Positions 1-9,584 of a stretch of DNA of 29,673 nucleotides are shown here, in pieces. The translations under genes and the position numbers were made by a program. Where the stretch lies: the IMG/VR virus record IMGVR_UViG_3300010389_000088, positions 1 through 29,673 of that record; one strand, 5' to 3'. How positions within the stretch are numbered: the stretch's first letter is position 1; each line of letters starts with the position of its first letter. The DNA is from a virus. The notes beneath the pieces were generated by a model, which ran no database searches, was not told where the DNA came from, and saw only the letters and a program-made list of their open reading frames with translations.

Positions 1-6
1 CCTCCC

Positions 7-52
7 TACGGTCGGGGTCGGTGCTGCTCACCGCAGCGGGGCTTACCGAGAT
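7..52. repeat. Dispersed non-coding repeat, copy a (partial)
   Basis: This shares TACGGTCGG near its start and GCGGGGCTTACCGAGATA at its end with copies at 796-870 and 2719-2774. No ORF with a recognisable start signal covers it, and its function is unknown. The similarity was judged by eye and is weakest for this copy. Confidence 0.35.
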
Positions 53-116
53 ATCCACAGCTTATCCACATCTTGTGGAAAAGGTTATCCACAAGTTTTC
101 CACAGGTTGTGGACAG
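51..116. promoter_or_regulatory. DnaA-box-like cluster A
   Basis: Six 9-mers match or nearly match the bacterial DnaA box TTATCCACA: 51-59 (one mismatch), 62-70 (exact), 74-82 (inverted TTTTCCACA), 85-93 (exact), 96-104 (TTTTCCACA) and about 108-116 (inverted TGTCCACA core). Neighbouring boxes face each other with 2-3 bp between them. The cluster lies downstream of the leftward gene at 148-399. Binding of host DnaA, for origin function or titration, is inferred. Confidence 0.65.
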
Positions 117-139
117 CCCCCGCCCGGTGTGGGCGGGGG
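117..139 (-). terminator. Hairpin terminator of the 148-399 gene
   Basis: A GC-only stem, CCCCCGCCC / GGGCGGGGG with a 5-nt loop, sits directly after the stop codon of the leftward gene. There is no U-tract, which is common for actinobacterial terminators. Confidence 0.55.
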
Positions 140-147
140 TCGCCGGG

Positions 148-399
148 TCACCACTCAACCGCCCGGTGGCGTGAACCGCCCAACGTCGACCCGCAAGCGT
201 CGCACGGTGACCACGAGAACGGGTCGCAGTATTCGGCGTCATCGCCGCAATCTAGCACGAACGAGTGGCCGTTGCGCACGGCAACGACACGCTCGTCGGT
301 ATCGTAGTCCGGCAGCTCTCCGTTGGCCTGAAAGTGTGCGCAATCTTCGCACACCCACAGATAGGCGGTCGGCTCGGTGATTTCGTGTGTGTTGGTCAT
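148..399 (-). CDS. Small protein with two CxxC pairs (83 aa)
   Basis: Begins MTNTHEITEPT. The start was chosen because the -10 box (TAGTGT) lies exactly 7 nt upstream of this ATG, as at most genes here, so the mRNA should be leaderless; an ATG 12 codons upstream would lie inside the promoter. The product has CEDC near residue 18 and CDAC near residue 67, a spacing that could hold one zinc ion, and an acidic middle. No family is recognised. It is monocistronic and followed by a hairpin. Confidence 0.75.
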   Translation of the reverse strand: MTNTHEITEPTAYLWVCEDCAHFQANGELPDYDTDERVVAVRNGHSFVLDCGDDAEYCDPFSWSPCDACGSTLGGSRHRAVEW

Positions 400-406
400 A
401 GGTGAA

Positions 407-435
407 ACACTACAGGAAAACCGAACCCGTGCCAA
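407..435 (-). promoter_or_regulatory. Promoter, leaderless gene 148-399
   Basis: TTGGCA-N17-TAGTGT, 7 nt before the ATG. Confidence 0.75.
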
Positions 436-480
436 CCCCTACGGCGAGAAAATTTCTTTTCTGATTTTTTCGTTCTGGGG

Positions 481-509
481 TTGTGTCTCGGCGTTGGGGG
501 CAGTAGTCT
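481..509 (+). promoter_or_regulatory. Promoter, leaderless gene 517-696
   Basis: TTGTGT-N17-TAGTCT, 7 nt before the ATG; divergent from the promoter at 407-435. Confidence 0.75.
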
Positions 510-516
510 CATGTAC

Positions 517-696
517 ATGAACACACACAAGGAATACAACGTCACTTGGACAGACACCGACGGCGACACGGTCACGGTCACGGTTCTGGCCACGAGCCGG
601 AATGACGCCCGCGAGGCGTGGCGCCGGGTCATGCGGTTGGCAGGCGACACCCTGCCCCCGGCGGTCGGTCGCCCGACCGTGGCGGTGGCCATGTGA
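517..696 (+). CDS. Small hypothetical protein (59 aa)
   Basis: Starts MNTHKEYNVTWTDTDGD at the ATG predicted by the 7-nt leaderless rule; an in-frame ATG at 511 lies between -10 and start. Residues 5-25 alternate in beta-strand fashion (YNVTWTDTDGDTVTVTVLA) before a short arginine-rich helix. No family recognised. It is transcribed divergently from the 148-399 gene and followed at once by an 11-bp hairpin. Confidence 0.75.
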   Translation: MNTHKEYNVTWTDTDGDTVTVTVLATSRNDAREAWRRVMRLAGDTLPPAVGRPTVAVAM

Positions 697-703
697 CCGC
701 ACC

Positions 704-729
704 GCCCCTGCCCCTACGGGGGCGGGGGC
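704..729 (+). terminator. Hairpin terminator of the 517-696 gene
   Basis: An 11-bp stem, GCCCCTGCCCC / GGGGCGGGGGC (one T-G pair), with a TACG loop, 7 nt after the stop codon. Confidence 0.6.
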
Positions 730-795
730 ACCCGCAAGGGTGAGAGTTTTAGACTATCGGCCCGCCCCGCTACGCCTATCGGCGCTCGCGATGGC

Positions 796-870
796 GGTTA
801 CGGTCGCAACGTCCCGCCCTCGCTTGCGCTCGGACGAAGCGTCAAGCGCTGATGCGGGGCTCACCGATAG
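796..870. repeat. Dispersed non-coding repeat, copy b
   Basis: Shares, in order, TTACGGT, AACGTCC, CTTGCGC and GCGGGGCTCACCG with the copy at 2719-2774. It lies in the roughly 200-bp gene-free stretch between 697 and 897, where I see only this repeat and hairpins. Confidence 0.45.
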
Positions 871-889
871 GGGGCGGTTGCCCGCCCCC
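870..889 (-). terminator. Hairpin terminator of the 898-1020 gene
   Basis: GGGGGCGG-TTGC-CCGCCCCC, an 8-bp GC stem 8 nt past the stop of the leftward gene. Confidence 0.5.
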
Positions 890-897
890 GGTGTCGG

Positions 898-1020
898 TCA
901 CTTCTTGTCGCGTGGCTTTTGCGACCCCCGTGCGGGGTTGTGGCGCCCGCTGGCGACGAACCGCGAGGCGGTGCGCAAGGTTGGCGGGCGGATTGGTTCG
1001 GTTCCTTGATTCCCTGTCAT
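898..1020 (-). CDS. Small basic protein (40 aa), leaderless
   Basis: The sequence runs MTGNQGTEPIRP to KPRDKK: basic, Arg- and Pro-rich, without a recognised domain. The start rests on the promoter, TTGCTT-N17-TAGTCT with 7 nt to the ATG, exactly as at its neighbours. It is followed by a hairpin. The reading frame extends upstream, but that part lies inside the promoter. Given the size, the promoter is the main evidence that the gene is real. Confidence 0.6.
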   Translation of the reverse strand: MTGNQGTEPIRPPTLRTASRFVASGRHNPARGSQKPRDKK

Positions 1021-1027
1021 GTGGTAC

Positions 1028-1056
1028 AGACTAGGGCACCCGCACCGGAAAAGCAA
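1028..1056 (-). promoter_or_regulatory. Promoter, leaderless gene 898-1020
   Basis: TTGCTT-N17-TAGTCT, 7 nt before the ATG. Confidence 0.7.
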
Positions 1057-1092
1057 CCCCATCGGGGAAATTTTCCCGGAAAAATGCAAGCA

Positions 1093-1112
1093 CCCGCCCC
1101 CGTAGGGGCGGG
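1093..1112 (-). terminator. Hairpin terminator of the 1136-1411 gene
   Basis: CCCGCCCC-CGTA-GGGGCGGG, an 8-bp stem about 24 nt past the stop codon. Confidence 0.5.
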
Positions 1113-1135
1113 CACCCGCTGGCGTGGCGTGTCGG

Positions 1136-1411
1136 TCACCCGAACACGCTGGCGTAGTTGTGGGCGATGCCAGCGCCCGACAGAATGATGCCTGTCCCGC
1201 ACTTATCGGACATCGAACCCCAACCGGGGTTCACGGCGGTCACCGTGTCGTCGGCGTTCACGTCGAACATGTGCGTCGTGTGGTGGACGATGGCCACCGA
1301 ACCGTCGGGGCGGGCGTGTGCTTCCCATGTAGACGCCACGGCGTGACCCTTGCGGGCGCGGGCGGTAGCGATGAGACGACGGCGTGATGTGGTTTTTGCT
1401 GGTGTGTTCAT
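1136..1411 (-). CDS. Hypothetical protein (91 aa), leaderless
   Basis: Starts MNTPAKTTSRRRLIATARARKGHAVASTW. The start is fixed by TTGCAA-N17-TAGTTT and a 7-nt gap. The N-terminus is strongly basic (residues 5-20); the rest is a mixed segment with HHTTHMFDV and a Gly/Ser-rich end (SMSDKCGTGIILSGAGIAHNY). No family recognised. Monocistronic with a hairpin behind it. Confidence 0.75.
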   Translation of the reverse strand: MNTPAKTTSRRRLIATARARKGHAVASTWEAHARPDGSVAIVHHTTHMFDVNADDTVTAVNPGWGSMSDKCGTGIILSGAGIAHNYASVFG

Positions 1412-1418
1412 GTAGCTA

Positions 1419-1447
1419 AAACTAGCGCATAGCGTCGCCCGTTGCAA
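1419..1447 (-). promoter_or_regulatory. Promoter, leaderless gene 1136-1411
   Basis: TTGCAA-N17-TAGTTT, 7 nt before the ATG. Confidence 0.75.
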
Positions 1448-1515
1448 CCCGTGCACCATCATTCCTACAGATAAGCGCACATCTCAGAAAAAGATAGGAA
1501 AATCCTAGCTAGGGG

Positions 1516-1544
1516 TTGCGTCGGGGGTTCGGTTCCTGTATCGT
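1516..1544 (+). promoter_or_regulatory. Promoter of the 1558-1731 gene
   Basis: GGGTTGCGT-N17-TATCGT. The gap to the ATG is 13 nt rather than 7, giving a leader of only about 6 nt. Confidence 0.65.
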
Positions 1545-1557
1545 TCGGGGTGTGGAA

Positions 1558-1731
1558 ATGAGAAACCCAAACCCCAGCACCATCAAACCGTCGACACGCC
1601 TTTTTGAGGTGTTCGACCCGACCCGGAACGGCATCGTCACATGGGGCGGTCCCCGCAAGTGCGCCGAATACATCGCGCGCCTACCGGAACACCGTCGCAA
1701 GGTGGCGGTCATGCGACCCGCCAGCCGGTGA
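1558..1731 (+). CDS. Small hypothetical protein (57 aa)
   Basis: Begins MRNPNPSTIKPSTRLFEVFDP and ends RRKVAVMRPASR; basic, with WGGPRKCAEYIARLPEHRRKVAV suggesting a C-terminal helix. The start was chosen by its distance from the promoter; GGGGTGTGGAA just upstream could also serve as a weak ribosome site. No family recognised. A long GC hairpin follows. Confidence 0.7.
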   Translation: MRNPNPSTIKPSTRLFEVFDPTRNGIVTWGGPRKCAEYIARLPEHRRKVAVMRPASR

Positions 1732-1739
1732 CCCGGCGA

Positions 1740-1766
1740 GGGGGCGGGGGGCGACCCCCGTCCCCC
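1740..1766 (+). terminator. Hairpin terminator of the 1558-1731 gene
   Basis: A stem of about 11 bp made of G and C runs (GGGGGCGGGGG against CCCCCGTCCCC) 9 nt past the stop codon. Confidence 0.5.
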
Positions 1767-1783
1767 ATCGGGGAGTCCCGGAG

Positions 1784-1851
1784 TTATCCACACCCTGTGG
1801 ATAAGTCTGTGGATAAAGTTTTCCACAACCTGTGGATAAAGCTGTGGAAAA
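1784..1851. promoter_or_regulatory. DnaA-box-like cluster B
   Basis: Six boxes: TTATCCACA at 1784-1792; TGTGGATAA at 1796-1804, 1808-1816 and 1831-1839; TTTTCCACA at 1819-1827; TGTGGAAAA at 1843-1851. Two inverted pairs (1784/1796 and 1819/1831) are each separated by 3 bp. The cluster lies in the convergent gap between the genes ending at 1731 and 1905. Confidence 0.7.
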
Positions 1852-1893
1852 CCAAGATGGGGGCGGGACTAGACTACCTCTCTCTAAAACACC

Positions 1894-1907
1894 CAATGGT
1901 GTTCCTA
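1894..1907 (+). promoter_or_regulatory. 14-bp asymmetric site, copy 1
   Basis: CAATGGTGTTCCTA. Upstream CTCTAAAAC resembles the extension of other intergenic copies. The stop codon of the leftward 1905-2135 gene lies inside it. Here, and only here, AACACC-CAAT-GGTGTT forms a perfect hairpin. Confidence 0.6.
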
Positions 1908-2135
1908 CCGTTCCGGTACACCATGGTGCTGCATGACGGCGCTCACGGCGATAGACATGGCCTCCAAAGTGGAACGCATGCTGTAGAACCGTACGCCCCT
2001 ATCGCTCAGTTCTTCCATGTTGAGTGCCAAAGTGTCCAGCAACCGCATGGAGTCCGCTAGCAACGCCTCTGTGACCTCGTAGGACGAGTTCAGAATGTCC
2101 TCTACTGCTTCTAGGGGTGACTGATCTGTGCTCAT
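1905..2135 (-). CDS. Hypothetical protein (76 aa), likely helical
   Basis: MSTDQSPLEAVEDILNSSYE onward; acidic and helix-forming (EALLADSMRLLDTLALNMEELSDR), no domain recognised. The start overlaps the stop of the upstream 2132-2332 gene as ATGA, with AGGAGGTG about 6 nt before it, so the two are translated together from one mRNA. Its stop codon falls inside copy 1 of the 14-bp site. Confidence 0.8.
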   Translation of the reverse strand: MSTDQSPLEAVEDILNSSYEVTEALLADSMRLLDTLALNMEELSDRGVRFYSMRSTLEAMSIAVSAVMQHHGVPER

Positions 2136-2332
2136 CGGTACACCTCCTTGAGCCATTCGTCGTTTGCCCAGCGCATAGCGTCTTGTAGGCAGGTCTCGCC
2201 ACGGAACTTCCGTGTGGCTCCAGTCCGCATGTGCATGACCTGAGCCTTGAGCGGGTCGGTCTTGTGCTCCATGACGGCATAGTCGCCCTCTGCTGTGTAG
2301 TCGATCCAGTCGGTTACTTTGTCTGTGTTCAT
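2132..2332 (-). CDS. Hypothetical protein (66 aa), leaderless
   Basis: MNTDKVTDWIDYTAEGDYAV; contains ATRKFRGETCLQDAMRWANDEW. First gene of a two-gene unit with 1905-2135. The start is fixed by TTGTGT-N17-TATACT and the 7-nt gap. No family recognised. Confidence 0.8.
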   Translation of the reverse strand: MNTDKVTDWIDYTAEGDYAVMEHKTDPLKAQVMHMRTGATRKFRGETCLQDAMRWANDEWLKEVYR

Positions 2333-2339
2333 GGGAGTA

Positions 2340-2368
2340 AGTATAGGACGACGGGAGGCGGTACACAA
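2340..2368 (-). promoter_or_regulatory. Promoter of the 2332-to-1905 unit
   Basis: TTGTGT-N17-TATACT, 7 nt before the ATG. Confidence 0.75.
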
Positions 2369-2412
2369 CCCCATCGGCAAAGTTTTTTCGTCAAATTTAT
2401 TTGCCTTGAGTG

Positions 2413-2441
2413 TTGCTTTTGCCGGTGGGATACCCTACACT
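2413..2441 (+). promoter_or_regulatory. Promoter of the 2449-2703 RNA
   Basis: TTGCTT-N17-TACACT. Seven nt after the -10 box the predicted start falls at 2448-2449, the first base of the long helix. No start codon follows. Confidence 0.75.
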
Positions 2442-2448
2442 GTTCTTA

Positions 2449-2703
2449 TTGACAACTGAAGAGAGGACAACGACCGGCGAGGCACCGAATAGCCCGCCCG
2501 TTGACCACACCGCTGACGGCTAACGACCACGACTCGCACTAGATGCGAGCGATCCCTGAACGAACGGTGTGCGAGGGTAGGGGGAATGCGAGTGAAGTCG
2601 GAGAACTCCACGAAAGCCGAGCCGAGGGCAACCCGGCGTGCGCACAAGGGGCGAGAGTAGGCGAAGCGAGTAGCGGGGGCGTTGTTCTCTCTTGAGTTGT
2701 CAA
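2449..2703 (+). ncRNA. Candidate structured RNA with 24-bp closing helix
   Basis: Positions 2449-2472 (TTGACAACTG...GACAACG) pair with 2680-2703 (CGTTGTTCTC...GTTGTCAA): 22 Watson-Crick pairs, one G-U and one mismatch. Inside, further helices are visible: CTCGCA-CTAGA-TGCGAG, GGCG-A-GGC...GCC-CGCC, GUGUGCG with CGUGCGCAC, and GCC-GA-GGG-CAA-CCC-GGC, consistent with a multibranched RNA of about 255 nt. The promoter ends 7 nt before the helix. I could not match it by eye to RNase P RNA, tmRNA, 6S RNA or a riboswitch. No plausible protein is encoded on the plus strand. Confidence 0.7.
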
Positions 2704-2718
2704 CTCATTTACGTTGAC

Positions 2719-2774
2719 GTTTACGGTGGGAACGTCCTGCTTGCGCCTTTGGCTCAGCGGGGCTCACCGGTATA
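2719..2774. repeat. Dispersed non-coding repeat, copy c
   Basis: TTACGGT...AACGTCC...CTTGCGC...GCGGGGCTCACCG, as at 796-870. It lies between the 3' end of the large RNA and the facing promoter at 2803-2831. It includes GACGTT/AACGTC arms able to form a 6-bp hairpin. Confidence 0.45.
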
Positions 2775-2802
2775 CCAGAGCCTCTCCTCTAGGTATGTGA
2801 CC

Positions 2803-2831
2803 AGTATAGCAGGGTAGGGGCGAGGATACAA
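2803..2831 (-). promoter_or_regulatory. Orphan leftward promoter facing the large RNA
   Basis: GGGGTTGTAT-N17-TATACT. The predicted start near 2795 is followed by no start codon; the transcript opens with TACC-T-AGAG...CTCT-GGTA, a hairpin, and would run antisense into 2449-2703. Confidence 0.55.
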
Positions 2832-2849
2832 CCCCTACCCTGCTTTTTC
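2808..2849. terminator. 13-bp hairpin with T-tract on the plus strand
   Basis: AGCAGGGTAGGGG and CCCCTACCCTGCT (2808-2820 / 2832-2844) pair perfectly, followed rightward by TTTTT. This would end the rightward RNA. The leftward orphan promoter's -35 box lies in its loop. Confidence 0.7.
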
Positions 2850-2887
2850 TCAGAGGCTGGCCTTGACCTTCTCTTTCAGCGCCTCCT

Positions 2888-3124
2888 CTAGCGTGTGGCG
2901 GGTTCAAACACGCCTGCCTCAATCAGCGTCAGAACGTGCTGCACGGCCTTGTTATGGTCATCGTAGGTTCCCATGACCTTGCTATAGTCAAACGGCCCAA
3001 AGATACACGTTTCGTCCAGTGGGGTCTTGGTGCCGAACACGCGGTAGTGTACGGACGATACCTCAATCTCACCTTGCTCGGTGTGAATGATAGTTAGGAT
3101 GTGGGGTCTGATTGTTTCTTGCAT
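2888..3124 (-). CDS. Hypothetical protein (78 aa)
   Basis: MQETIRPHILTIIHTEQGEIEV onward, with beta-strand-like N-terminal half and a C-terminal helix (NKAVQHVLTLIEAGVFEPATR). Unlike its neighbours it has a ribosome site, GAGAAGG, 8-9 nt before the ATG, and I cannot place a standard promoter; TATAGAT lies 23 nt upstream. Divergent from 3284-3490. No family recognised. Confidence 0.75.
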   Translation of the reverse strand: MQETIRPHILTIIHTEQGEIEVSSVHYRVFGTKTPLDETCIFGPFDYSKVMGTYDDHNKAVQHVLTLIEAGVFEPATR

Positions 3125-3186
3125 GTGTACACCTTCTCATATCTATAGGCACATGTCAAGCCTATCGGGCATATTTCTAAATAAAG

Positions 3187-3219
3187 TTATCCACAACCTG
3201 TGGATAACCCTGTGGAAAA
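3187..3219. promoter_or_regulatory. DnaA-box-like cluster C
   Basis: TTATCCACA (3187-3195) faces TGTGGATAA (3199-3207) across 3 bp, forming a 10-bp perfect palindrome arm; TGTGGAAAA follows at 3211-3219. It sits in a divergent gap, so it cannot be a terminator for either neighbour. Confidence 0.65.
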
Positions 3220-3246
3220 AGAAATCTGAAAAAATCCTGTTTCGAC

Positions 3247-3277
3247 TTGACCGGTGCGTTCCGAGTGTGCCTATAAT
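3247..3277 (+). promoter_or_regulatory. Promoter, leaderless gene 3284-3490
   Basis: TTGACC-N19-TATAAT, 6 nt before the ATG; the spacer is longer than at the other promoters. Confidence 0.55.
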
Positions 3278-3283
3278 GTACAC

Positions 3284-3490
3284 ATGAACAACACCACAGA
3301 AATCCAAATCAACCCTTTCCACCTCGCACAGACGATTGCAGCTCTCCGCATCGAAGTGCGGACAGGCCTTCGCCACAGCCGTGGGAGCGTCTGGAAGATG
3401 GCTAAGGAGACCTACGGGGTCACCGGTAACAAAGAGGCGGTTCTCAAGAAGTTGGAGGTTCTACACGAACTGGTAAAGACCGCCGAGTGA
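3284..3490 (+). CDS. Hypothetical protein (68 aa), leaderless
   Basis: MNNTTEIQINPFHLAQTIAA onward: helical and basic, with LRIEVRTGLRHSRGSVWKMAKETYGVTGNKEAVLKKLEVLHELV reading like a small helix-turn-helix or helical bundle, though I recognise no family. TATAAT ends 6 nt before the ATG. A terminator hairpin follows. Confidence 0.75.
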   Translation: MNNTTEIQINPFHLAQTIAALRIEVRTGLRHSRGSVWKMAKETYGVTGNKEAVLKKLEVLHELVKTAE

Positions 3491-3496
3491 GAGCGA

Positions 3497-3528
3497 GGGG
3501 GTGGGGCTCCGGCCTCACCCCCACTTTT
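3497..3528 (+). terminator. Terminator of the 3284-3490 gene
   Basis: GGGGGTGGGGC and GCCTCACCCCC pair over 11 bp (one G-T), loop TCCG, followed by ACTTTT. Confidence 0.65.
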
Positions 3529-3545
3529 CCACAGCTTGTGGATAA
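3525..3545. promoter_or_regulatory. DnaA-box-like cluster D
   Basis: TTTTCCACA (3525-3533) faces TGTGGATAA (3537-3545) across 3 bp, the same arrangement as the pairs in clusters A to C. Confidence 0.55.
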
Positions 3546-3555
3546 CTAACGGAAA

Positions 3556-3584
3556 GCCCCGCCAAGCCATTCGGCTAGCGGGGC
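3556..3584 (-). terminator. Hairpin downstream of the 3649-3804 gene
   Basis: GCCCCGC/GCGGGGC with inner AGCC-ATTC-GGCT; read leftward it is followed by TTTCCG. The 64 bp between it and the gene hold no start codon in a usable frame. Confidence 0.55.
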
Positions 3585-3648
3585 GGTTCGGCGGTCTGTT
3601 CAGCTCTGTTATTAGGCTAGCACTCGGCAAGCCCCGGCGGGCTAGGGC

Positions 3649-3804
3649 TCAGCCCCACGCCCCCTTCCGGCACGCCTCTCGGCTTGCCTTCCGGCGCTTG
3701 TTGGGCACGGTCTGTGCCCGTAGACGGTTACCGTCTGCGAACGCCTGCCTATCCTCGGCGCTCCAGCCTCGGCGGGTGTTGGTGGTGGTGTTGCTCTTGC
3801 TCAT
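3649..3804 (-). CDS. Small basic protein (51 aa), leaderless
   Basis: MSKSNTTTNTRRGWSAEDRQ onward, ending KASREACRKGAWG. About a quarter of the residues are Arg or Lys, suggesting nucleic-acid contact, but no family is recognised. The ATG is 6 nt from a TACAAT -10 box. The upstream gene's strong hairpin abuts the -35 box. Confidence 0.65.
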   Translation of the reverse strand: MSKSNTTTNTRRGWSAEDRQAFADGNRLRAQTVPNKRRKASREACRKGAWG

Positions 3805-3810
3805 GACATC

Positions 3811-3838
3811 ATTGTACCACCCGCTAGGGTAAAAGCAA
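3811..3838 (-). promoter_or_regulatory. Promoter, leaderless gene 3649-3804
   Basis: TTGCTT-N16-TACAAT, 6 nt before the ATG. Confidence 0.65.
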
Positions 3839-3872
3839 CCCTCTAGGTGAGATTTTTCCCACCTAGAGGGTC
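3837..3872 (-). terminator. Terminator of the 3881-4171 gene
   Basis: ACCCTCTAGGTG and CACCTAGAGGGT form a perfect 12-bp stem; read leftward TTGCTTTT follows, so the run of T after the hairpin is also the next gene's -35 box. Confidence 0.7.
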
Positions 3873-3880
3873 GCCCCCTA

Positions 3881-4171
3881 TCAGACGGTCACCTCCTGAG
3901 TGCGGTAGGTGATGGTGCTAGTGCGTGATGAGTAGGTCTCTACGGCTGCGTTCTTGATGGCGTTGGCTGCGCGCCCCGCCGACTCTCCGGCGTCTGCAAT
4001 GAGCCTCAGAGCCTCAGCCATGCCACCCTCTAGGGTGTAGATGTGGCTGAACCCGCCGTCGTTCTTCCAGTAGACCATGACGCTACCGTCGTGCCAGAGC
4101 ACGATTCGGGTGACAGCGGTGCTGTCAGCGGTGGCGAGTACGATTCCTGTTTCTGTGGTATGTGCTTTCAT
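3881..4171 (-). CDS. Hypothetical protein (96 aa), leaderless
   Basis: MKAHTTETGIVLATADSTAVTRIVLWHDGSVMVYWKNDG onward: two or three beta strands, then a helix (EGGMAEALRLIADAGESAGRAANAIKNAA) and a Thr/Ser-rich tail. Start from TTGTGC-N17-TAGTCT plus 7 nt. No family recognised. Divergent from 4288-4434. Confidence 0.8.
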   Translation of the reverse strand: MKAHTTETGIVLATADSTAVTRIVLWHDGSVMVYWKNDGGFSHIYTLEGGMAEALRLIADAGESAGRAANAIKNAAVETYSSRTSTITYRTQEVTV

Positions 4172-4178
4172 GTGTGTA

Positions 4179-4207
4179 AGACTACAGGCATCAGCCCACG
4201 AGCACAA
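4179..4207 (-). promoter_or_regulatory. Promoter, leaderless gene 3881-4171
   Basis: TTGTGC-N17-TAGTCT, 7 nt before the ATG. Confidence 0.75.
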
Positions 4208-4251
4208 CCCCTAGACCGGGATTTTTTCTTTTTATTTTTCGGGCTCAAGGG

Positions 4252-4280
4252 TTGCGGTTACCGAATACATAGGGTAAAGT
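4252..4280 (+). promoter_or_regulatory. Promoter, leaderless gene 4288-4434
   Basis: GGGTTGCGG-N17-TAAAGT, 7 nt before the ATG. Confidence 0.75.
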
Positions 4281-4287
4281 TACATGC

Positions 4288-4434
4288 ATGAACCACAACG
4301 ACTACGAAAACGACATCTTCTACACCGACCGTGAGGAGTTCTACGAGGCTCCAGAGGAGGCGTGGGAGTACGACCACGGGGGCTACGAGGACTACGAGCC
4401 CAACCCCTACGACGGCACCTACAGCGAGTGCTGA
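4288..4434 (+). CDS. Acidic Tyr-rich protein (48 aa), leaderless
   Basis: MNHNDYENDIFYTDREEFYE onward, ending NPYDGTYSEC. Nearly all of it is Asp, Glu, Tyr and Asn, with no hydrophobic core, so it may be a disordered or DNA-mimicking peptide; that is speculation. The start obeys the 7-nt rule and a strong terminator follows about 60 nt later. Confidence 0.7.
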   Translation: MNHNDYENDIFYTDREEFYEAPEEAWEYDHGGYEDYEPNPYDGTYSEC

Positions 4435-4497
4435 AGGCAAAATAGATCGGACTGGGATAGGGGTGGCGGACAACAAACTCCGCAACCGACGCCAGTG

Positions 4498-4532
4498 AAA
4501 CCCACCCCCGCAGCTGGGGGTGGGTTTCGTTT
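4498..4532 (+). terminator. Terminator after the 4288-4434 gene
   Basis: AAACCCACCCCC and GGGGGTGGGTTT pair over 12 bp, loop GCAGCT, followed by CGTTT. The gene-free 4435-4748 stretch otherwise holds only GC-rich inverted repeats. Confidence 0.7.
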
Positions 4533-4722
4533 ACCCTTTCGGGGCTCCCCCGCCTGCCTCGCTTCCCCTCTCGGGGAGAGGTTTACACATCTATCGGAGA
4601 GCCCCGCCTGTCGGCGGACACCGACGAGACATCTGTACTATCCTGTCTCTCGGGAAGCCCCGCCTCACCTTGTGGGCGGGCGGGGCGTGTCGGCGGTAGC
4701 AGACAGCACGCCGGGGCTGGTC

Positions 4723-4742
4723 GGGAGGGGTCTCCCCCTCCC
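4723..4742 (-). terminator. Hairpin terminator of the 4749-4892 gene
   Basis: GGGAGGGG and CCCCTCCC, an 8-bp stem ending 6 nt past the stop codon. Confidence 0.5.
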
Positions 4743-4748
4743 TCCCTC

Positions 4749-4892
4749 TCATTGGGCGATGAGTTCTCGTGCTACCTCTTCCAAGTAGTCCTCGTGCTCC
4801 AAGTAGGACTCGTAGCACCCTCCGCATAGGTCGTCCAGCGAGTCCGCCAGAGCGCATCGGAGGTTGTGGTTGTTGTTGTGGTTGTTGTTCAT
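4749..4892 (-). CDS. Small acidic protein (47 aa), leaderless
   Basis: MNNNHNNNHNLRCALADSLD onward, ending EVARELIAQ. An Asn/His-rich N-terminus (possibly metal-binding) precedes CGGC and an acidic helix. TAGAGT lies 7 nt before the ATG. No family recognised. Confidence 0.7.
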   Translation of the reverse strand: MNNNHNNNHNLRCALADSLDDLCGGCYESYLEHEDYLEEVARELIAQ

Positions 4893-4899
4893 GTCATGA

Positions 4900-4928
4900 A
4901 CTCTACCAGCACCTACCGAAATACGCAA
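4900..4928 (-). promoter_or_regulatory. Promoter, leaderless gene 4749-4892
   Basis: TTGCGT-N17-TAGAGT, 7 nt before the ATG. Confidence 0.75.
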
Positions 4929-5079
4929 CCCTTTAGGTGATATTTTTGAGATTTCTTTCTAAGGTACCTAGAGCTCGCTCTAACGGCATAAACCTAATCT
5001 TAGGTATCCCAGAGGCTCCGGTATGGTTGCGAGGCTCTGAGAGGCATACAGACGCCATACAGAGCAAAACGAGAAAAGC

Positions 5080-5097
5080 CCCACCCTTTCGGGTGGG
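5080..5097 (-). terminator. Terminator of the 5116-5379 gene
   Basis: CCCACCC-TTTC-GGGTGGG; read leftward it is followed by GGCTTTTCTCG. Confidence 0.65.
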
Positions 5098-5115
5098 TAC
5101 TCCTCTCCTCTCCTA

Positions 5116-5379
5116 TCACCAGTCGGCGCAATCCTCGGCGTAACTCTCCGCCCATGCATCGGCTGCTCGGCGCTCTGTCTCCTCGGCGTAGTGCTCCAGA
5201 GCGTGGTCAAAGTGGTGAGAGTTCCAGAACTCCTCCTCTGTGCCTCCGGTCTCTTGTTGGAACTCTGCAAGAGCCTCGGCGTACTCCTCGGACTCTGCGA
5301 ACTCCTCGCTCAGAGCGTCCGAATCGCCCATGGCGTTGAGGTACTGGTTGGTCTGTGCTGTAACGTGACAGTAGGTCAT
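5116..5379 (-). CDS. Strongly acidic helical protein (87 aa), leaderless
   Basis: MTYCHVTAQTNQYLNAMGDS onward, then long Glu/Ala-rich stretches (EEFAESEEYAEALAEFQQ and ALEHYAEETERRAADAWAE). The composition fits an acidic helical bundle; no family recognised. Start from TTGTCA-N17-TACAGT plus 7 nt. A T-rich terminator follows. Confidence 0.8.
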   Translation of the reverse strand: MTYCHVTAQTNQYLNAMGDSDALSEEFAESEEYAEALAEFQQETGGTEEEFWNSHHFDHALEHYAEETERRAADAWAESYAEDCADW

Positions 5380-5386
5380 GTCAGAT

Positions 5387-5415
5387 ACTGTACTCCTTGT
5401 TTTTGGGAATGACAA
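5387..5415 (-). promoter_or_regulatory. Promoter, leaderless gene 5116-5379
   Basis: TTGTCA-N17-TACAGT, 7 nt before the ATG. Confidence 0.75.
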
Positions 5416-5429
5416 CCTCTGAGGGAAAA

Positions 5430-5461
5430 TTTCTCCGGTGCCATCGCTGACACCGGAGAAA
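5430..5461 (-). terminator. Terminator of the 5470-5799 gene
   Basis: TTTCTCCGGTG and CACCGGAGAAA, an 11-bp perfect stem; read leftward it continues as TTTTCCC. Confidence 0.7.
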
Positions 5462-5469
5462 CTCTCCGC

Positions 5470-5799
5470 TCACGTCGTGAGGAACCGCACCTCTCGCACT
5501 AGGCGAGCGAGCGACTCGTTCGTAACGCCATCGTGTCGCATGATGGAGTAAATGAGTTTGTATGCCTGCTCTAGCGAGTGTGGCCAGTCGTAGTGCGCCG
5601 TCTTGCGCTCTTTGATGTCGTACACGCTCCATACAATGTCACCATCGAAGTTGTAGATAGTGACGGCGAGTTCATCGGTGTAGCGTAGCGAGACGCCATT
5701 GAGAGTCACGGCGCTGAGCCACGACGGAGTGAGGACTGCGAAGTCGTTGTTTGCGAGGGTGTCGGAGTGGGTACCGACTGCGTTGGTCATCTGTGCCAT
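5470..5799 (-). CDS. Hypothetical protein (109 aa), leaderless
   Basis: MAQMTNAVGTHSDTLANNDF onward, with TPSWLSAVTLNGVSLRYTDELAVTIYNFDGDIVWSVYDI looking like an antiparallel sheet, then a helix (SLEQAYKLIYSIMRHDGV). The first ATG is used because TAGTCT ends 7 nt before it; the second, three codons later, is too far. Divergent from 5907-6092, with both promoters in the 107-bp gap. Confidence 0.8.
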   Translation of the reverse strand: MAQMTNAVGTHSDTLANNDFAVLTPSWLSAVTLNGVSLRYTDELAVTIYNFDGDIVWSVYDIKERKTAHYDWPHSLEQAYKLIYSIMRHDGVTNESLARLVREVRFLTT

Positions 5800-5806
5800 G
5801 TCCTAG

Positions 5807-5835
5807 AGACTATCGACCCCAAACACTCACCACAA
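5807..5835 (-). promoter_or_regulatory. Promoter, leaderless gene 5470-5799
   Basis: TTGTGG-N17-TAGTCT, 7 nt before the ATG. Confidence 0.75.
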
Positions 5836-5870
5836 CCTCAGAGGGAAAATAATCTTTTTTTCTTTGGAGG

Positions 5871-5899
5871 TTGCGGAACGCAAAAATAGCGAGTAGTCT
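5871..5899 (+). promoter_or_regulatory. Promoter, leaderless gene 5907-6092
   Basis: TTGCGG-N17-TAGTCT, 7 nt before the ATG, preceded by an A/T tract. Confidence 0.75.
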
Positions 5900-5906
5900 T
5901 ACTGAC

Positions 5907-6092
5907 ATGACATACAGCAACGAGCTACCAGACCCCGACTACGATGCCATGATTGAGGCGCAGGCTGATATCCTCTGGTGGGAGTCGGAGCCACATCGCC
6001 ACACCGACGAGGACATCGCACGGTGGGAGGCACCGGACGAGGAGCCGGAGCCGGAGGCGCTCTACGACCCCGACGCACGACGGGAGCGGTGA
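5907..6092 (+). CDS. Acidic protein (61 aa), leaderless
   Basis: MTYSNELPDPDYDAMIEAQA onward, with Trp-Trp at about residues 24-25 and an Asp/Glu/Pro-rich C-terminal half (EAPDEEPEPEALYDPDARRER). No domain recognised. The start follows the 7-nt rule; a 7-bp hairpin lies just downstream. Confidence 0.75.
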   Translation: MTYSNELPDPDYDAMIEAQADILWWESEPHRHTDEDIARWEAPDEEPEPEALYDPDARRER

Positions 6093-6107
6093 GGGGCAAC
6101 CCTCCCC

Positions 6108-6124
6108 ACTCCCCCTCGGGGAGT
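6108..6124 (+). terminator. Short hairpin after the 5907-6092 gene
   Basis: ACTCCCC-CTC-GGGGAGT, 7 bp. Confidence 0.4.
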
Positions 6125-6203
6125 CCCGGTGCGCTCAGCGCGAGCCACCGCACACGAAGAAGGAGGAGGAGGGACAGCCCCGCTAAGCTCTCGCTATAGC
6201 ACT

Positions 6204-6217
6204 CAACGGTGTTCCTA
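6204..6217 (+). promoter_or_regulatory. 14-bp asymmetric site, copy 2
   Basis: CAACGGTGTTCCTA, one change from the consensus, followed by a partial second half (GGTGTACCTA). It lies between the converging 5907-6092 gene and the leftward transcript from 6356. Confidence 0.55.
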
Positions 6218-6244
6218 TGGTGTACCTATGCGAACCGGAGCAGT

Positions 6245-6356
6245 TTCTCTTCATGCTCAGGAAGTTCCTCATGATTCACTTCCACGCCTCATGAGGTAGG
6301 CAATGTGGAAGTCGCACAGATCCCCTATTGGTGACGACGCTGTGCTCTCTCGCCGT
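6245..6356 (-). ncRNA. Candidate small structured RNA (3' end uncertain)
   Basis: A full promoter (6364-6392) points into 250 bp without a usable ORF; all three frames close quickly. The transcript would form GCACAG/CTGTGC (6340-6345 with 6314-6319), then ACTTCCAC/GTGGAAGT (8 bp, 6305-6312 with 6278-6285) with an inner GCCT/AGGC stem. The 3' end is set only approximately; copy 2 of the 14-bp site follows about 30 nt beyond. No known RNA family recognised. Confidence 0.5.
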
Positions 6357-6363
6357 TGTCCTC

Positions 6364-6392
6364 AGTATAGCAGGACGTTATCGTAGTGTCAA
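6364..6392 (-). promoter_or_regulatory. Orphan promoter of the 6356 transcript
   Basis: GGTTGACA-N17-TATACT; no start codon at the expected distance. Confidence 0.7.
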
Positions 6393-6409
6393 CCTATCCC
6401 GCAGATTTT

Positions 6410-6709
6410 CTACGGGCGGAACAGGTAGCCACGCTCCTCCCAGTAGCCCTCCATGCGGAGGTCGCTAGCAAGGCTGTCATAGTTGATGTACATACGAATC
6501 CAGTCATCACCTACGTGGTTGTCTACGAGGTCGCTAACGTACTCACGGAGCGTCATCTGGCCAGCGTACGATTCGGTAAACTCTGACTCGTAGTTCTCTG
6601 CCTCTTCCGGAGAGAGGTGGTTATTCTCGCACCACGCCTCTACGGCCTCGGTATCGTAACCCCACTCTTCTGCGAGGCTGTCGTATGTGGTTTCTGTGTC
6701 TGTGTTCAT
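6410..6709 (-). CDS. ardA: ArdA-like antirestriction protein, short form (99 aa)
   Basis: ArdA proteins mimic B-form DNA and block type I restriction-modification enzymes. From about residue 40 to the end the sequence follows the ArdA C-terminal pattern: E(S/F)xESYxGxxxxxEYVxDLVD, then YINYDSLASDLRMEGYWEERGYLF. It is strongly acidic, as expected for a DNA mimic. Typical ArdA is about 165-180 aa; this one lacks the N-terminal domain and starts directly at a helical segment, with its start fixed by TTGCAA-N17-TATAGT plus 7 nt. The assignment is by eye; inhibitory activity of the short form is inferred. Confidence 0.6.
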   Translation of the reverse strand: MNTDTETTYDSLAEEWGYDTEAVEAWCENNHLSPEEAENYESEFTESYAGQMTLREYVSDLVDNHVGDDWIRMYINYDSLASDLRMEGYWEERGYLFRP

Positions 6710-6716
6710 GTCAGTA

Positions 6717-6745
6717 ACTATAGCGGAGGGGTCGCTCTATTGCAA
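6717..6745 (-). promoter_or_regulatory. Promoter, ArdA-like gene, with embedded inverted repeat
   Basis: TTGCAA-N17-TATAGT, 7 nt before the ATG. TAGCGGAGGGG (6721-6731) and CCCCTCCGCTA (6746-6756) pair around the -35 box. Confidence 0.75.
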
Positions 6746-6770
6746 CCCCTCCGCTAAGATTTTCTTCTGA

Positions 6771-7244
6771 TTATTGTGCGCCGTGGTCGTGCCACACTAG
6801 GCGACCACCCTCTTCTTTGTACCGGCACGCTGTGTGGCGGTATTCGTGCATGTTTGCACTTAGACGCCAACGCCATGCGACCGTGTTACAACAGGACACG
6901 CATATGGCCTCGTAGCGTCCCTCAGGGGCGCCCTCTGGTGCCGCAGCACACCGCTCGCCCCTGCACCCGATGCTCTTAGCCATCGCACGCCAACGGGGAC
7001 CGTGGCCCTCACCCGGCCCTACGAGGGCGTGGGCAATCTCGTGCAGAATAGTGTCGATGATGTCATCGTCTGATGCGTGCTCTGCCCATAGGCGAGACAT
7101 ACCGATGACCTTTTTGCTGAACTTGCATACTCCCGCCCTACGCTTGGCGTTGTCCCATTGGAACGTCCAATCGTGGAGACCGTGCTCGTCCATGAGGTCG
7201 ATAGCGAGGCTTTGGATACTTTGCTTTGTGGTTGTCGTTGTCAT
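6771..7244 (-). CDS. SprT-like zinc metalloprotease (157 aa)
   Basis: SprT-like proteins are minimal gluzincin-type metalloproteases; the eukaryotic relative SPRTN removes DNA-protein crosslinks. HEIAH at residues 68-72 gives the zinc ligands His68 and His72 and catalytic Glu69; His81 in GHGPRW is the likely third ligand. A C-terminal zinc-ribbon part follows (CVSCC ... HTACRYKEEGG). Length is normal for phage members. Its substrate here is unknown. Leaderless start from TTGCGA-N17-TATACT plus 7 nt. Confidence 0.85.
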   Translation of the reverse strand: MTTTTTKQSIQSLAIDLMDEHGLHDWTFQWDNAKRRAGVCKFSKKVIGMSRLWAEHASDDDIIDTILHEIAHALVGPGEGHGPRWRAMAKSIGCRGERCAAAPEGAPEGRYEAICVSCCNTVAWRWRLSANMHEYRHTACRYKEEGGRLVWHDHGAQ

Positions 7245-7251
7245 GTCAGCC

Positions 7252-7280
7252 AGTATAGCCTAGGGGTCGCACCGTCGCAA
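7252..7280 (-). promoter_or_regulatory. Promoter, SprT-like gene, with embedded inverted repeat
   Basis: TTGCGA-N17-TATACT. AGCCTAGGGG (7257-7266) and CCCCTAGGCT (7281-7290) flank the -35 box; the same arms recur at the 8220-8248 promoter. Confidence 0.75.
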
Positions 7281-7297
7281 CCCCTAGGCTCAGATTT

Positions 7298-7678
7298 TCA
7301 CTCGTTTTCTTCGTAGGCCTCTTGTAGCACACCGGCCATGATACCTAGTGCCACTCGCTGTGCTGATGCCACGATAGCGTACAGCGTGGCATCGCTAACG
7401 AGCCCTTCCGCTATCACGTCGTCGCAGTAGTACCTACGACTAGGGTCGTCGGCCAACCATTGGAAAAGGTCGGTGTAGTAGATGTCAACTAGTGAGTCGC
7501 ACTCCGCGTCGATATCGAAACCCTCCGAGATGGTATGATAGAGAGCCGCACAGCGACTCCACCGCCACTCGTTAGGTGCCTCACCGTCGTGGGCCTCACG
7601 AACAGCATCAAGGAGCCATTCGGGAGCCTCTTCTACAAGGGTAGTGTTTTCGTTTCTGGATTTGGTGAAGTAAGTCAT
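7298..7678 (-). CDS. Acidic helical hypothetical protein (126 aa), leaderless
   Basis: MTYFTKSRNENTTLVEEAPE onward; acidic, with DAVREAHDGEAPNEWRWSRCAALYHTI and a C-terminal helix (ATLYAIVASAQRVALGIMAGVLQEAYEENE). No family recognised. The start lies 7 nt from TATACT; the frame is open 40 codons further upstream, but that part runs through the promoter. Confidence 0.8.
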   Translation of the reverse strand: MTYFTKSRNENTTLVEEAPEWLLDAVREAHDGEAPNEWRWSRCAALYHTISEGFDIDAECDSLVDIYYTDLFQWLADDPSRRYYCDDVIAEGLVSDATLYAIVASAQRVALGIMAGVLQEAYEENE

Positions 7679-7685
7679 GAGAGAG

Positions 7686-7714
7686 AGTATAGGATAGCTC
7701 CGACCTAAAAACAA
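7686..7714 (-). promoter_or_regulatory. Promoter, leaderless gene 7298-7678
   Basis: GGGTTGTTT-N17-TATACT, 7 nt before the ATG. Confidence 0.75.
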
Positions 7715-7738
7715 CCCCAAAGAAAAAGAATTTTGAGG

Positions 7739-7767
7739 TTGCTTTTTCTGATGGGCTCCGGTAGTCT
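7739..7767 (+). promoter_or_regulatory. Promoter of the 7775-8201 unit
   Basis: GGTTGCTT-N17-TAGTCT, 7 nt before the ATG. Confidence 0.75.
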
Positions 7768-7774
7768 GACACTC

Positions 7775-7909
7775 ATGGAACAAACAACCAAAATACATAA
7801 GACCCTACGCTTCCCCCTCGTCCTCTGCGACGAGTGCGGTCAAGTGTTCGACCTCTCAGACGATAACGACGCCGATGAGTGGTACTACGGCCACGATTGC
7901 GAGGGCTGA
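7775..7909 (+). CDS. Small CxxC protein (44 aa), leaderless
   Basis: MEQTTKIHKTLRFPLVLCDE onward, with CDEC, an acidic loop (DLSDDNDADEWYY) and GHDCEG at the end; the Cys/His set resembles a one-zinc ribbon. No named family. First gene of a two-gene unit: its TGA is followed by C and the ATG of the next gene. Confidence 0.75.
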   Translation: MEQTTKIHKTLRFPLVLCDECGQVFDLSDDNDADEWYYGHDCEG

Positions 7910-7910
7910 C

Positions 7911-8201
7911 ATGGACGACATGGAACGCATCGCATGGGACATGCTCGTAGATTGTGCGTGGTCGCTTGACATCAAGGTCAACGCAAAGAAACTCGGCATC
8001 GTACTAAAAGCCGCAAAAGCGGAGAGCGAGGAGACCTACCACGCCGTGCTAGGCATGGCACTGCGACGGAGGGCGGGTCGCTTGACTCACGAGACCCTCG
8101 TTCAGCGCGGATGGCAGACTAAGGTCTCCCGTAGACCACAGCGTGGTACTCACCACGACTCATGGAGCATCAGGGAGAAGTACGTCACCGGAAGAACGTG
8201 A
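7911..8201 (+). CDS. Hypothetical protein (96 aa), helical
   Basis: MDDMERIAWDMLVDCAWSLD onward, then KKLGIVLKAAKAESEETYHAVLGMALRRRAGR and a basic C-terminus. Start chosen for coupling to the upstream stop (TGAcATG); a weak GAGGG precedes it. An ATG 12 codons upstream would overlap the previous gene. No family recognised. Confidence 0.75.
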   Translation: MDDMERIAWDMLVDCAWSLDIKVNAKKLGIVLKAAKAESEETYHAVLGMALRRRAGRLTHETLVQRGWQTKVSRRPQRGTHHDSWSIREKYVTGRT

Positions 8202-8219
8202 GAAAAGTTAGCCTAGGGG

Positions 8220-8248
8220 TTGCGTCATCGTAGCCCCTAGGCTATACT
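8220..8248 (+). promoter_or_regulatory. Promoter, leaderless gene 8256-8402, with embedded inverted repeat
   Basis: TTGCGT-N17-TATACT, 7 nt before the ATG. AGCCTAGGGG (8210-8219) and CCCCTAGGCT (8234-8243) flank the -35 box, the same arms as at 7257-7290. Confidence 0.75.
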
Positions 8249-8255
8249 GGTCTCC

Positions 8256-8402
8256 ATGGAACGATACGACATACGCCCAACGCCCACCGGAGAGTGGGCG
8301 GTCATCGACCGAGGTAACGGGGGAGGCGTCCGAGATACCTACCCGACCCGCGAGCTTGCCCTCAGAGAGGCAAAGCGTCTAGAGAGGGGGACAAGAACCT
8401 AA
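8256..8402 (+). CDS. DUF2188-like small protein (48 aa), leaderless
   Basis: MERYDIRPTPTGEWAVIDRG onward, ending LALREAKRLERGTRT. The order 'V.P...G.W.V......-GG-R....T..EA...A' matches small DUF2188-type beta-beta-alpha proteins, whose function is unknown. The likeness is by eye. Start from the 7-nt rule. Copy 3 of the 14-bp site lies 19 nt past the stop. Confidence 0.65.
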   Translation: MERYDIRPTPTGEWAVIDRGNGGGVRDTYPTRELALREAKRLERGTRT

Positions 8403-8421
8403 CCCCTCTTCTATAAACACT

Positions 8422-8435
8422 CTATGGTGTTCCTA
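8422..8435 (+). promoter_or_regulatory. 14-bp asymmetric site, copy 3
   Basis: CTATGGTGTTCCTA, preceded by CTATAAACACT. It spans the last codons and stop of the leftward 8422-8574 gene and lies just past the rightward 8256-8402 gene. Confidence 0.6.
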
Positions 8436-8574
8436 CAGCCCAGAGCTGAGAAACGTCAAGCCACCCGAGCTCGGTACCTGCCTTGAGCTCAGTATCTATT
8501 AGCGACCAAGCTAGCTCAGAGTTGCACCTCTCAGCTGCGTAAAGCGCTATTATCAAGCGTTCTAGCTTATCCAT
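8422..8574 (-). CDS. Small amphipathic protein (50 aa)
   Basis: MDKLERLIIALYAAERCNSE onward, ending VSQLWAVGTP. One long amphipathic helix is likely. No family recognised. Promoter fit is imperfect (TTGCGG, 19-bp spacer, TAGCAT, 6 nt to the ATG). The 8575-8641 stretch upstream contains only this promoter and AT-rich sequence. The coherent hydrophobic pattern supports a real gene; the alternative is chance. Confidence 0.5.
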   Translation of the reverse strand: MDKLERLIIALYAAERCNSELAWSLIDTELKAGTELGWLDVSQLWAVGTP

Positions 8575-8641
8575 ATTATTATGCTAGCTAGAGGGCTGTC
8601 CAGCCCCGCAACTATTGATGCTATAATAAGCTCGCAACCAC

Positions 8642-8670
8642 TTGACAAGTAAACTACAAGAAAGTAATAT
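8642..8670 (+). promoter_or_regulatory. Promoter, leaderless gene 8678-8827
   Basis: Consensus TTGACA-N17-TAATAT, 7 nt before the ATG. Confidence 0.75.
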
Positions 8671-8677
8671 GACTCTC

Positions 8678-8827
8678 ATGGCTACCGAAACAGTAAAGTT
8701 CGTATGTGAAAAGTGCGGAACTACTTTAGAGACGTTCTCGTCCGCTGCTGTGTGGTGCCCCATGGGTCATAGAATGGAACCCGAGGAGGCCCCAAGTGGC
8801 AAAGCAAAGCAAAGTAGTACAAACTAA
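8678..8827 (+). CDS. Small zinc-ribbon protein (49 aa)
   Basis: MATETVKFVCEKCGTTLETF onward. CEKC near residue 10 and CPMGH near residue 28 give four potential zinc ligands. The C-terminal tail is Ser/Lys-rich. Start by the 7-nt rule; an ATG three codons upstream is the alternative. It is followed, overlapping by 32 nt, by the basic 8796-8927 gene. Confidence 0.75.
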   Translation: MATETVKFVCEKCGTTLETFSSAAVWCPMGHRMEPEEAPSGKAKQSSTN

Positions 8828-8927
8828 GAGCACCAAGCGTCCGGGAATTCACGCTAAGAGCAAGAGCTCAAACCAACCCCGCTCTAAGAACTACGCCAAG
8901 AAGTACCGTGGTCAGGGTCGTCCCTGA
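8796..8927 (+). CDS. Small basic phage protein (43 aa), GTG start
   Basis: MAKQSKVVQTKSTKRPGIHA onward, ending KKYRGQGRP. The pattern TKSTKRPGIHAK...SSKNY-KKYRGQGR recurs in tiny basic proteins of many unrelated phages; their function is unknown. A strong ribosome site, GAGGAGG, lies 7 nt before the GTG, inside the upstream gene, so translation is probably coupled. Confidence 0.75.
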   Translation: MAKQSKVVQTKSTKRPGIHAKSKSSNQPRSKNYAKKYRGQGRP

Positions 8928-9058
8928 TTCTTTCTAATATGTTCGTTGAGTTTGGCAATCCACGCTGCCTCTTTTCTTTCATCAGCGTATAACGGCGCCT
9001 GATAAGCCTTCTTCGGGTGTTTGATATGACCTGATGAAGTATTATTGTTGTATCTCAA
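8912..9058 (-). CDS. Small hypothetical protein (48 aa), TTG start
   Basis: MRYNNNTSSGHIKHPKKAYQ onward, ending LNEHIRKNQGRP. AGGAGG lies 5 nt before the TTG. It converges on 8796-8927; both end in the palindrome TCAGGGTCGTCCCTGA, so both proteins end GQGRP/QGRP. No family recognised, and the non-ATG start lowers confidence. Confidence 0.5.
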   Translation of the reverse strand: MRYNNNTSSGHIKHPKKAYQAPLYADERKEAAWIAKLNEHIRKNQGRP

Positions 9059-9086
9059 CGAATCCTCCTGTTATTAGACTAGGTTT

Positions 9087-9320
9087 ATGGGTAGACGAGA
9101 GTCCGCAGGAAGTTATGCGTGGGGCGTACTCGCCCTGTACGTCATGATGTACGACCTCGTTGCTCTCAAGCGTAAATACTCCACGCTGAGCTTTGCCTTC
9201 TACCGAGCTTCTACTCATAAAAGCGGTCGTTACCTCCTAATAGGTCTCTGGTGTTATCTTACAGCACATCTGTTTAGATGGCTACCTAAAAAGTGGGATA
9301 TTCTAAGAGCCTTTTTCTAG
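9087..9320 (+). CDS. Small two-helix membrane protein (77 aa)
   Basis: MGRRESAGSYAWGVLALYVM onward. Two hydrophobic segments are visible (about residues 10-27 and 49-66) with a basic loop between them (ALKRKY). Similar short membrane proteins with an N-terminal RRESAGSYAW-type motif occur in many actinobacterial phages and are sometimes taken for holins; the role here is not shown. TAGACT ends 6 nt before the ATG, so it may be leaderless, but no clear -35 box was found. Confidence 0.75.
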   Translation: MGRRESAGSYAWGVLALYVMMYDLVALKRKYSTLSFAFYRASTHKSGRYLLIGLWCYLTAHLFRWLPKKWDILRAFF

Positions 9321-9584
9321 TCACCACTCTCTCCATGCTCTACCCCAGCGTGGGGACGTAGAACGAAGGTAGCACGCCCATAAGGGGTGCCTTTCCTCTA
9401 CCATCTCAGGTAGAACGATGTGTACGGCGTAGTCGATGCTGCGAACGAACCGACACGGGGAGCCGAAGAAGAACCGGCTCTGTGGCCTGCTCTCCGTCGC
9501 CCTAGCGATGCTAGCACACCTTTCTAGGCATACGTCCCACGGGTCGATACCGATGTTGTCTGCGAATCGTCTTACGCTGTTCAT
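9321..9584 (-). CDS. Basic hypothetical protein (87 aa), leaderless
   Basis: MNSVRRFADNIGIDPWDVCL onward, with Arg-rich and Trp-rich stretches towards the end (YLRSTSPRWGRAWREW). No family recognised. Start from TTGCTT-N17-TATACT plus 7 nt. Its stop abuts the stop of the convergent 9087-9320 gene without a visible terminator. Confidence 0.75.
   Translation of the reverse strand: MNSVRRFADNIGIDPWDVCLERCASIARATESRPQSRFFFGSPCRFVRSIDYAVHIVLPEMVEERHPLWACYLRSTSPRWGRAWREW

Follow-up and report, generated by a model that had tools for sequence, protein, structure and literature searches.

The packaging RNA of phage phi29 is a small phage RNA that multimerises through its loops, and the retroviral dimer initiation hairpin presents a purine-flanked palindromic loop on a short stem. 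The structured RNA OLE forms a dimer supported by a symmetric kissing loop in which a palindromic tetranucleotide covaries, and the GOLLD and ROOL RNAs, encoded by phages or prophages and of unknown function, are homo-oligomeric via covarying kissing loops (PMC12286853). Kretsch et al., who solved structures of OLE and GOLLD homo-oligomers, made use of loop covariation that is impossible in cis (PMC12286853). Homo-oligomers are uncommon among natural RNAs, and what they do in phages is not known. The RNA described here, 255 nt long, is encoded in a viral DNA stretch of 29,673 nucleotides (IMG/VR record IMGVR_UViG_3300010389_000088; hereafter, the window). It belongs in kind with OLE, GOLLD and ROOL, although it is much smaller and no relationship to them was detected. 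Like OLE, it is a structured RNA with a covarying palindromic kissing loop; OLE, however, is approximately 600 nt long, bacterial and bound by known proteins, whereas the phage RNA has no match in Rfam. With GOLLD and ROOL it shares its phage origin, the lack of a known function and the kissing-loop covariation. Those RNAs, however, span 600 to more than 800 nt, build 14-mers and 8-mers and are frequently sited close to tRNA islands, whereas the phage RNA measures 255 to 390 nt, shows a single detected self-contact and lacks a consistent tRNA neighbour. The phi29 packaging RNA forms a ring through two different complementary loops, while the single palindromic loop found here predicts a dimer. 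The likeness to the retroviral hairpin is one of geometry only; that element is part of a genomic RNA and there is no homology.

The RNA occupies positions 2449 to 2703 of the window and, like all elements of the RNA and its flanking signals given below, lies on the plus strand. A first-pass annotation, made from the sequence alone, had proposed a 24-bp closing helix with 22 Watson-Crick pairs, one G-U and one mismatch. Direct inspection of the sequence gave the same pairing: in this helix (P1), 2449-2472 faces 2680-2703 over 24 positions, the mismatch being G-G. The predicted folding energy of the 255-nt strand (−110.9 kcal/mol) lies well below that of 200 dinucleotide shuffles of the same strand (−87.8 ± 4.5; z = −5.1), none of which scored as low. 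Folding also confirmed the proposed T-tailed terminator as a strong one; it consists of a 13-bp stem followed by TTTTT at 2808-2845, about 105 nt past P1. The promoter claimed in the same annotation fared less well. A −10-like TACACT is indeed present at 2436-2441, 7 nt upstream of the helix, with TTGCTT 17 nt further upstream (putative promoter, 2413-2441), but the combination matches the consensus at only 7 of 12 positions and a scan of the window returned nothing at 9 of 12. The promoter in the window itself is weak. Clean promoters precede the RNA in several relatives, as exemplified by TTGACA-17-TATAGT in loci L043 and L047.

The Rfam 15 models, including those for GOLLD, ROOL, OLE, raiA, 6S and tmRNA, gave no match over the RNA when run against the window at E ≤ 1, and at the gathering score 15 relative loci likewise lacked any match over it; at E ≤ 5, the segment 2400-2860 yielded only chance microRNA matches, which fell on the terminator. 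The annotation, too, had recognised no known RNA family. No earlier description of the RNA in mycobacteriophages was found in the open-licence literature, and prior description elsewhere is not excluded.

A blastn search with 2380-2860 against 50,697 phage records matched only Mycobacterium phages of the subfamily Ceeclamvirinae (cluster C), namely Phabba, Myrna, Tonenili and Dandelion. With member sequences as further queries, the RNA was found in 190-194 phage records, essentially all of them Mycobacterium phages of cluster C. The carriers include Myrna, Phabba, ScoobyDoobyDoo and the Bxz1/I3 group, and their copies are near-identical or related. This presence throughout a subfamily of isolated mycobacteriophages, along with the covarying palindromic loop described below, had not been part of the first-pass annotation. 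Motif scans that included IMG/VR gave 39 distinct members, many of them from uncultured relatives, locus L181 being a 40th; members were accepted only when the two conserved core strands, M1 and M2, occurred together. The pattern GGYTAACGACCACGAC used alone also matches unrelated contigs, which were excluded by this demand. Exact motif scanning of 84,980 bacterial and archaeal species (one genome each) found the RNA motifs absent, so that the RNA looks like one of lytic phages rather than a host or common-prophage RNA; a scan of plasmids returned chance matches only.

The genomes of Phabba, Myrna and ScoobyDoobyDoo carry no annotation where the RNA lies, a gap of roughly 500 to 700 nt. Some Bxz1-type phages have hypothetical proteins annotated across the RNA, and gp076 of Tonenili (L004:3554-3817), another annotated hypothetical protein, overlaps it; the latter annotation is probably spurious. 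Identification of the RNA corrects the annotation of several "hypothetical proteins" in cluster C genomes that overlie it. A divergent relative (L175:4400-4720, minus strand) keeps P1 and the 3′ kissing hairpin and lacks the M1/M2 core. The combination of the 3′ kissing domain with a different 5′ core in this locus suggests that the dimer module has been retained more widely than the core. Of 36 loci scanned for tRNA or tmRNA genes, only 3 gave a prediction, so that the RNA does not share the location near tRNA arrays that marks GOLLD and ROOL. One of the ARAGORN tmRNA calls, in L016, was rejected as a part of the RNA: it is a separate gene (10219-10616; Rfam 57.7 bits) on the same strand of that phage contig, about 1 kb downstream. 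Another, in L031, was rejected as it had no Rfam support.

Covariation was analysed in an alignment of 16 compact relatives (A2), from which the window and cluster C were left out; A2 replaced a first MAFFT alignment (A1) that had a gap inside helix P3. In A2, 94.0% of the cells of 20 named pairs were paired, against 62.1 ± 2.0 upon shuffling, with 92 cells showing two-sided changes against 29 and a covariation score of 0.75 against 0.18. Sliding the partners by 1-3 columns caused pairing to fall to 36-49%. In a tree-aware null of our own implementation (not R-scape), inferred substitutions were redistributed over the branches for 25 members and 31,896 column pairs. Ten pairs reached E < 0.05, all of them within P4, the kissing stem, P2, P3, P1a or the loop palindrome. 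A covariance model built from A2, hence without the window or cluster C, detected the core of the window RNA with 110.9 bits (E = 4.3e-30) and those of Myrna, Phabba, Tonenili and ScoobyDoobyDoo at E of about 1e-16 to 1e-19. The annotation had ranked the locus first among its candidates for an undescribed RNA, to be refuted by, among other things, a lack of compensatory changes among relatives or a conserved protein on either strand. The two checks open to sequence comparison were run: two-sided changes are abundant, no reading frame on either strand is open in all members, and insert lengths among members are not multiples of three. Both results support the call. Within the reach of comparative sequence analysis, these tests together with the loop data below demonstrate the conserved RNA, its helices and the selection for loop self-complementarity. 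The window RNA is genuine and belongs to a large, apparently undescribed family of phage RNAs.

From 5′ to 3′, the RNA comprises P1, P1a, a conserved GAGGYACC, P2, P3, M1, P4, M2 and the return strands of P3 and P2; these are followed by GGAG.. and GAGYGAA loops, a small helix, the kissing hairpin and the return strand of P1. The 5′ strand of P1 (2449-2472) carries the motif TTGACAAC in about half of the members. P1a pairs 2474-2478 with 2597-2601 and is marked by covarying columns 29-166 (E 0.03) and 30-165. P2 pairs 2497-2499 with 2575-2577; its columns 57-130 are 100% canonical, with four pair types, and exceed every null value. In P3 (2506-2512 with 2565-2571), two-sided changes occur in six of six modelled pairs. 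M1 (CTGACGGYTAACGACCACGA, 2513-2532), present in all members, and M2 (CGAYCCCTGAACGAA, 2550-2564) are near-invariant core strands that face each other and contain invariant columns in A2. Between them lies the P4 hairpin (2533-2549), whose covarying stem (2533-2538/2544-2549) includes columns 93-102, 94-101 and 95-100, all above every null value. Further 3′, a tentative helix between 2606-2609 and 2675-2678 has a weaker signal, and a short helix below the kissing hairpin (2621-2623 with 2660-2662; columns 195-241 and 196-240) is 96% canonical. The kissing hairpin itself spans 2632-2650, and columns 207-224 and 208-223 of its stem (2632-2634/2648-2650) are 100% canonical and exceed every null value. 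A possible tertiary contact of GG-YRC-C with GA-GYG-AA (columns 37-160, E 0.07) is suggestive only. The 255 nt of the window extend to about 390 nt in relatives, mostly through P4, which varies from 15 to more than 110 nt, and through the segment preceding the kissing hairpin.

In 33 of the 39 members, the 3′ hairpin has the form stem-GG(A/C)-8-nt palindrome-(G/A)A-stem. The octamer is GTGCGCAC in 15 members, GTGGCCAC in 8, GGTGCATC in 5 and GTTGCAAC in 2, while GCTGCAGC, GTCCGGAC and GGTGCACC occur once each. The remaining six have shorter palindromes (4-6 nt: UGCA, AUGCAU, GUGCAC or GACGUC) near the same place, some of them in a less certain position. In the window the loop is GUGCGCAC (2638-2645), the inferred site of self-pairing; its alignment columns are 100% self-complementary, with two-sided changes at three of the four pairs. 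A tree from which the hairpin was excluded shows that the palindrome has undergone at least 13 changes among seven forms (GUGCGCAC, GUGGCCAC, GUUGCAAC and others) and has remained self-complementary throughout. Even the near-identical loci L148 and L158 differ here (GUGGCCAC versus GUCCGGAC). The adjacent loop columns 179-180 of A2 are GC in 11 relatives and CG in 5, and columns 178-181 are GC in 9 and UA in 7, all 16 being paired in both instances. Palindrome pairs 214-217 and 213-218 also passed E < 0.05 under the tree-aware null. Since the hairpin was first picked with a self-complementarity filter, the case for a universal palindrome depends on columns aligned without that filter and on two sequences that played no part in defining the loop, L181 and ScoobyDoobyDoo, which carry GTGGCCAC and GTGCGCAC.

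Pairing of the inner two palindrome pairs in cis would need loops of two and zero nt, which implies that the complementarity is selected between chains. One mark of homo-oligomeric ornate RNAs of the OLE, GOLLD and ROOL kind is that neighbouring nucleotides of a symmetric loop covary, and the present loop shows it. The 8-bp loop-loop duplex is predicted to contribute −9.3 to −14.5 kcal/mol. Judged from these alignments, it is highly probable that the RNA is under selection to homodimerise, and two copies would most likely clasp each other through this one loop. RNAs of that kind are further marked by several intermolecular contacts per chain; covariation detected one here.

We favour, with good though not full confidence, the explanation that the locus encodes a structured RNA of about 255 nt that is independent of its neighbours, acts in trans and dimerises via its palindromic loop. 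In the absence of transcript data, transcription from its own promoter and trimming to P1 are inferred. P1, P1a, P2, P3 and P4 would form a closed body presenting the near-invariant M1/M2 internal loop, and in the infected cell the palindromic 3′ loop would pair with its counterpart in a second molecule to yield a symmetric homodimer. No partner has been identified; the M1/M2 internal loop is inferred to be a docking site for a conserved host factor. The fact that some 35 core nucleotides are invariant while every helix varies suggests that the partner, too, is conserved from host to host and would therefore be a host factor. With low confidence, the boxA-like motif present in about half of the members points to the Nus/ribosome-assembly machinery as the first candidate. 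It is conceivable, and offered tentatively, that these RNAs are a class that self-assembles without protein into a symmetric homodimer, possibly into something larger, and whose invariant core seizes a conserved actinobacterial component. If so, the RNA would be a particle that lytic actinophages turn on the host machinery or place in its service. That the dimer serves in infection as a bivalent decoy or scaffold for the host factor is a more doubtful inference. In any event, the RNA provides a compact case (255 nt) in which the dimer contact is written in covariation, in about 190 records of cluster C, whose phages grow on the laboratory strain M. smegmatis mc2 155, and it may represent a new and readily testable kind of virus-made RNA assembly.

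The RNA might alternatively be a cis-acting leader, a structure heading an operon transcript that either alters RNA polymerase, by boxA/Nus or put-like antitermination, or controls the gene that follows. It lies directly downstream of promoters in many relatives, and 18 of the 39 members carry on the 5′ strand of P1 a TTGAnAACT-type motif that we take to resemble the actinobacterial rRNA boxA region; similarly, TTGACAACTGAAGAG at the 5′ end of the RNA (2449-2465 in the window, and in relatives) resembles the boxA/spacer element of actinobacterial rRNA. ORFs with a ribosome site closely follow the RNA at several loci, such as that of Tonenili, and a leader role is possible there. However, the boxA-like motif is missing from about half of the members, and the flanking gene families include none common to the lineages, so that the conserved downstream gene expected of a leader is not found. 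In the window, the terminator follows P1 by 105 nt and the likely neighbour genes lie on the strand opposite to the RNA, which favours a stand-alone RNA gene. A cis element would also leave the selected self-pairing loop unexplained. We regard a leader as unlikely.

Two further readings were considered. Palindromic sequences commonly mark sites for dimeric DNA-binding proteins, and the loop could be such a site, or a DNA-level signal, rather than an RNA-RNA contact. A sequence-specific protein, however, would not be expected to tolerate at least 13 changes in which self-complementarity alone is kept, nor does this explain why the palindrome always falls within the loop of a covarying hairpin; we consider this very improbable. 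A phage RNA that binds RNA polymerase as 6S or Ms1 RNA does would be in line with the similar size and the long closing helix, and the hosts are not known to have a canonical 6S. Yet no Rfam family matches the RNA in the window or in the relative loci scanned, and 6S has neither a kissing loop nor a conserved core of two strands, making this reading improbable as well.

The RNA gene was said to lie amid clusters of DnaA boxes, and these are in fact over-represented: the window contains 10 exact copies of TTATCCACA, against 0.2 expected by chance. Nine of the ten lie within 3.5 kb (62-3545), the other at 13403, and the cluster may be a phage origin or a DnaA sink. Megablast of window segments 1-12000 and 21060-29673 against isolated phages gave no match, so that none of the isolates compared is closely related to the window phage. 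The window also encodes a tRNA-Ile with anticodon TAT, at 20108-20184.
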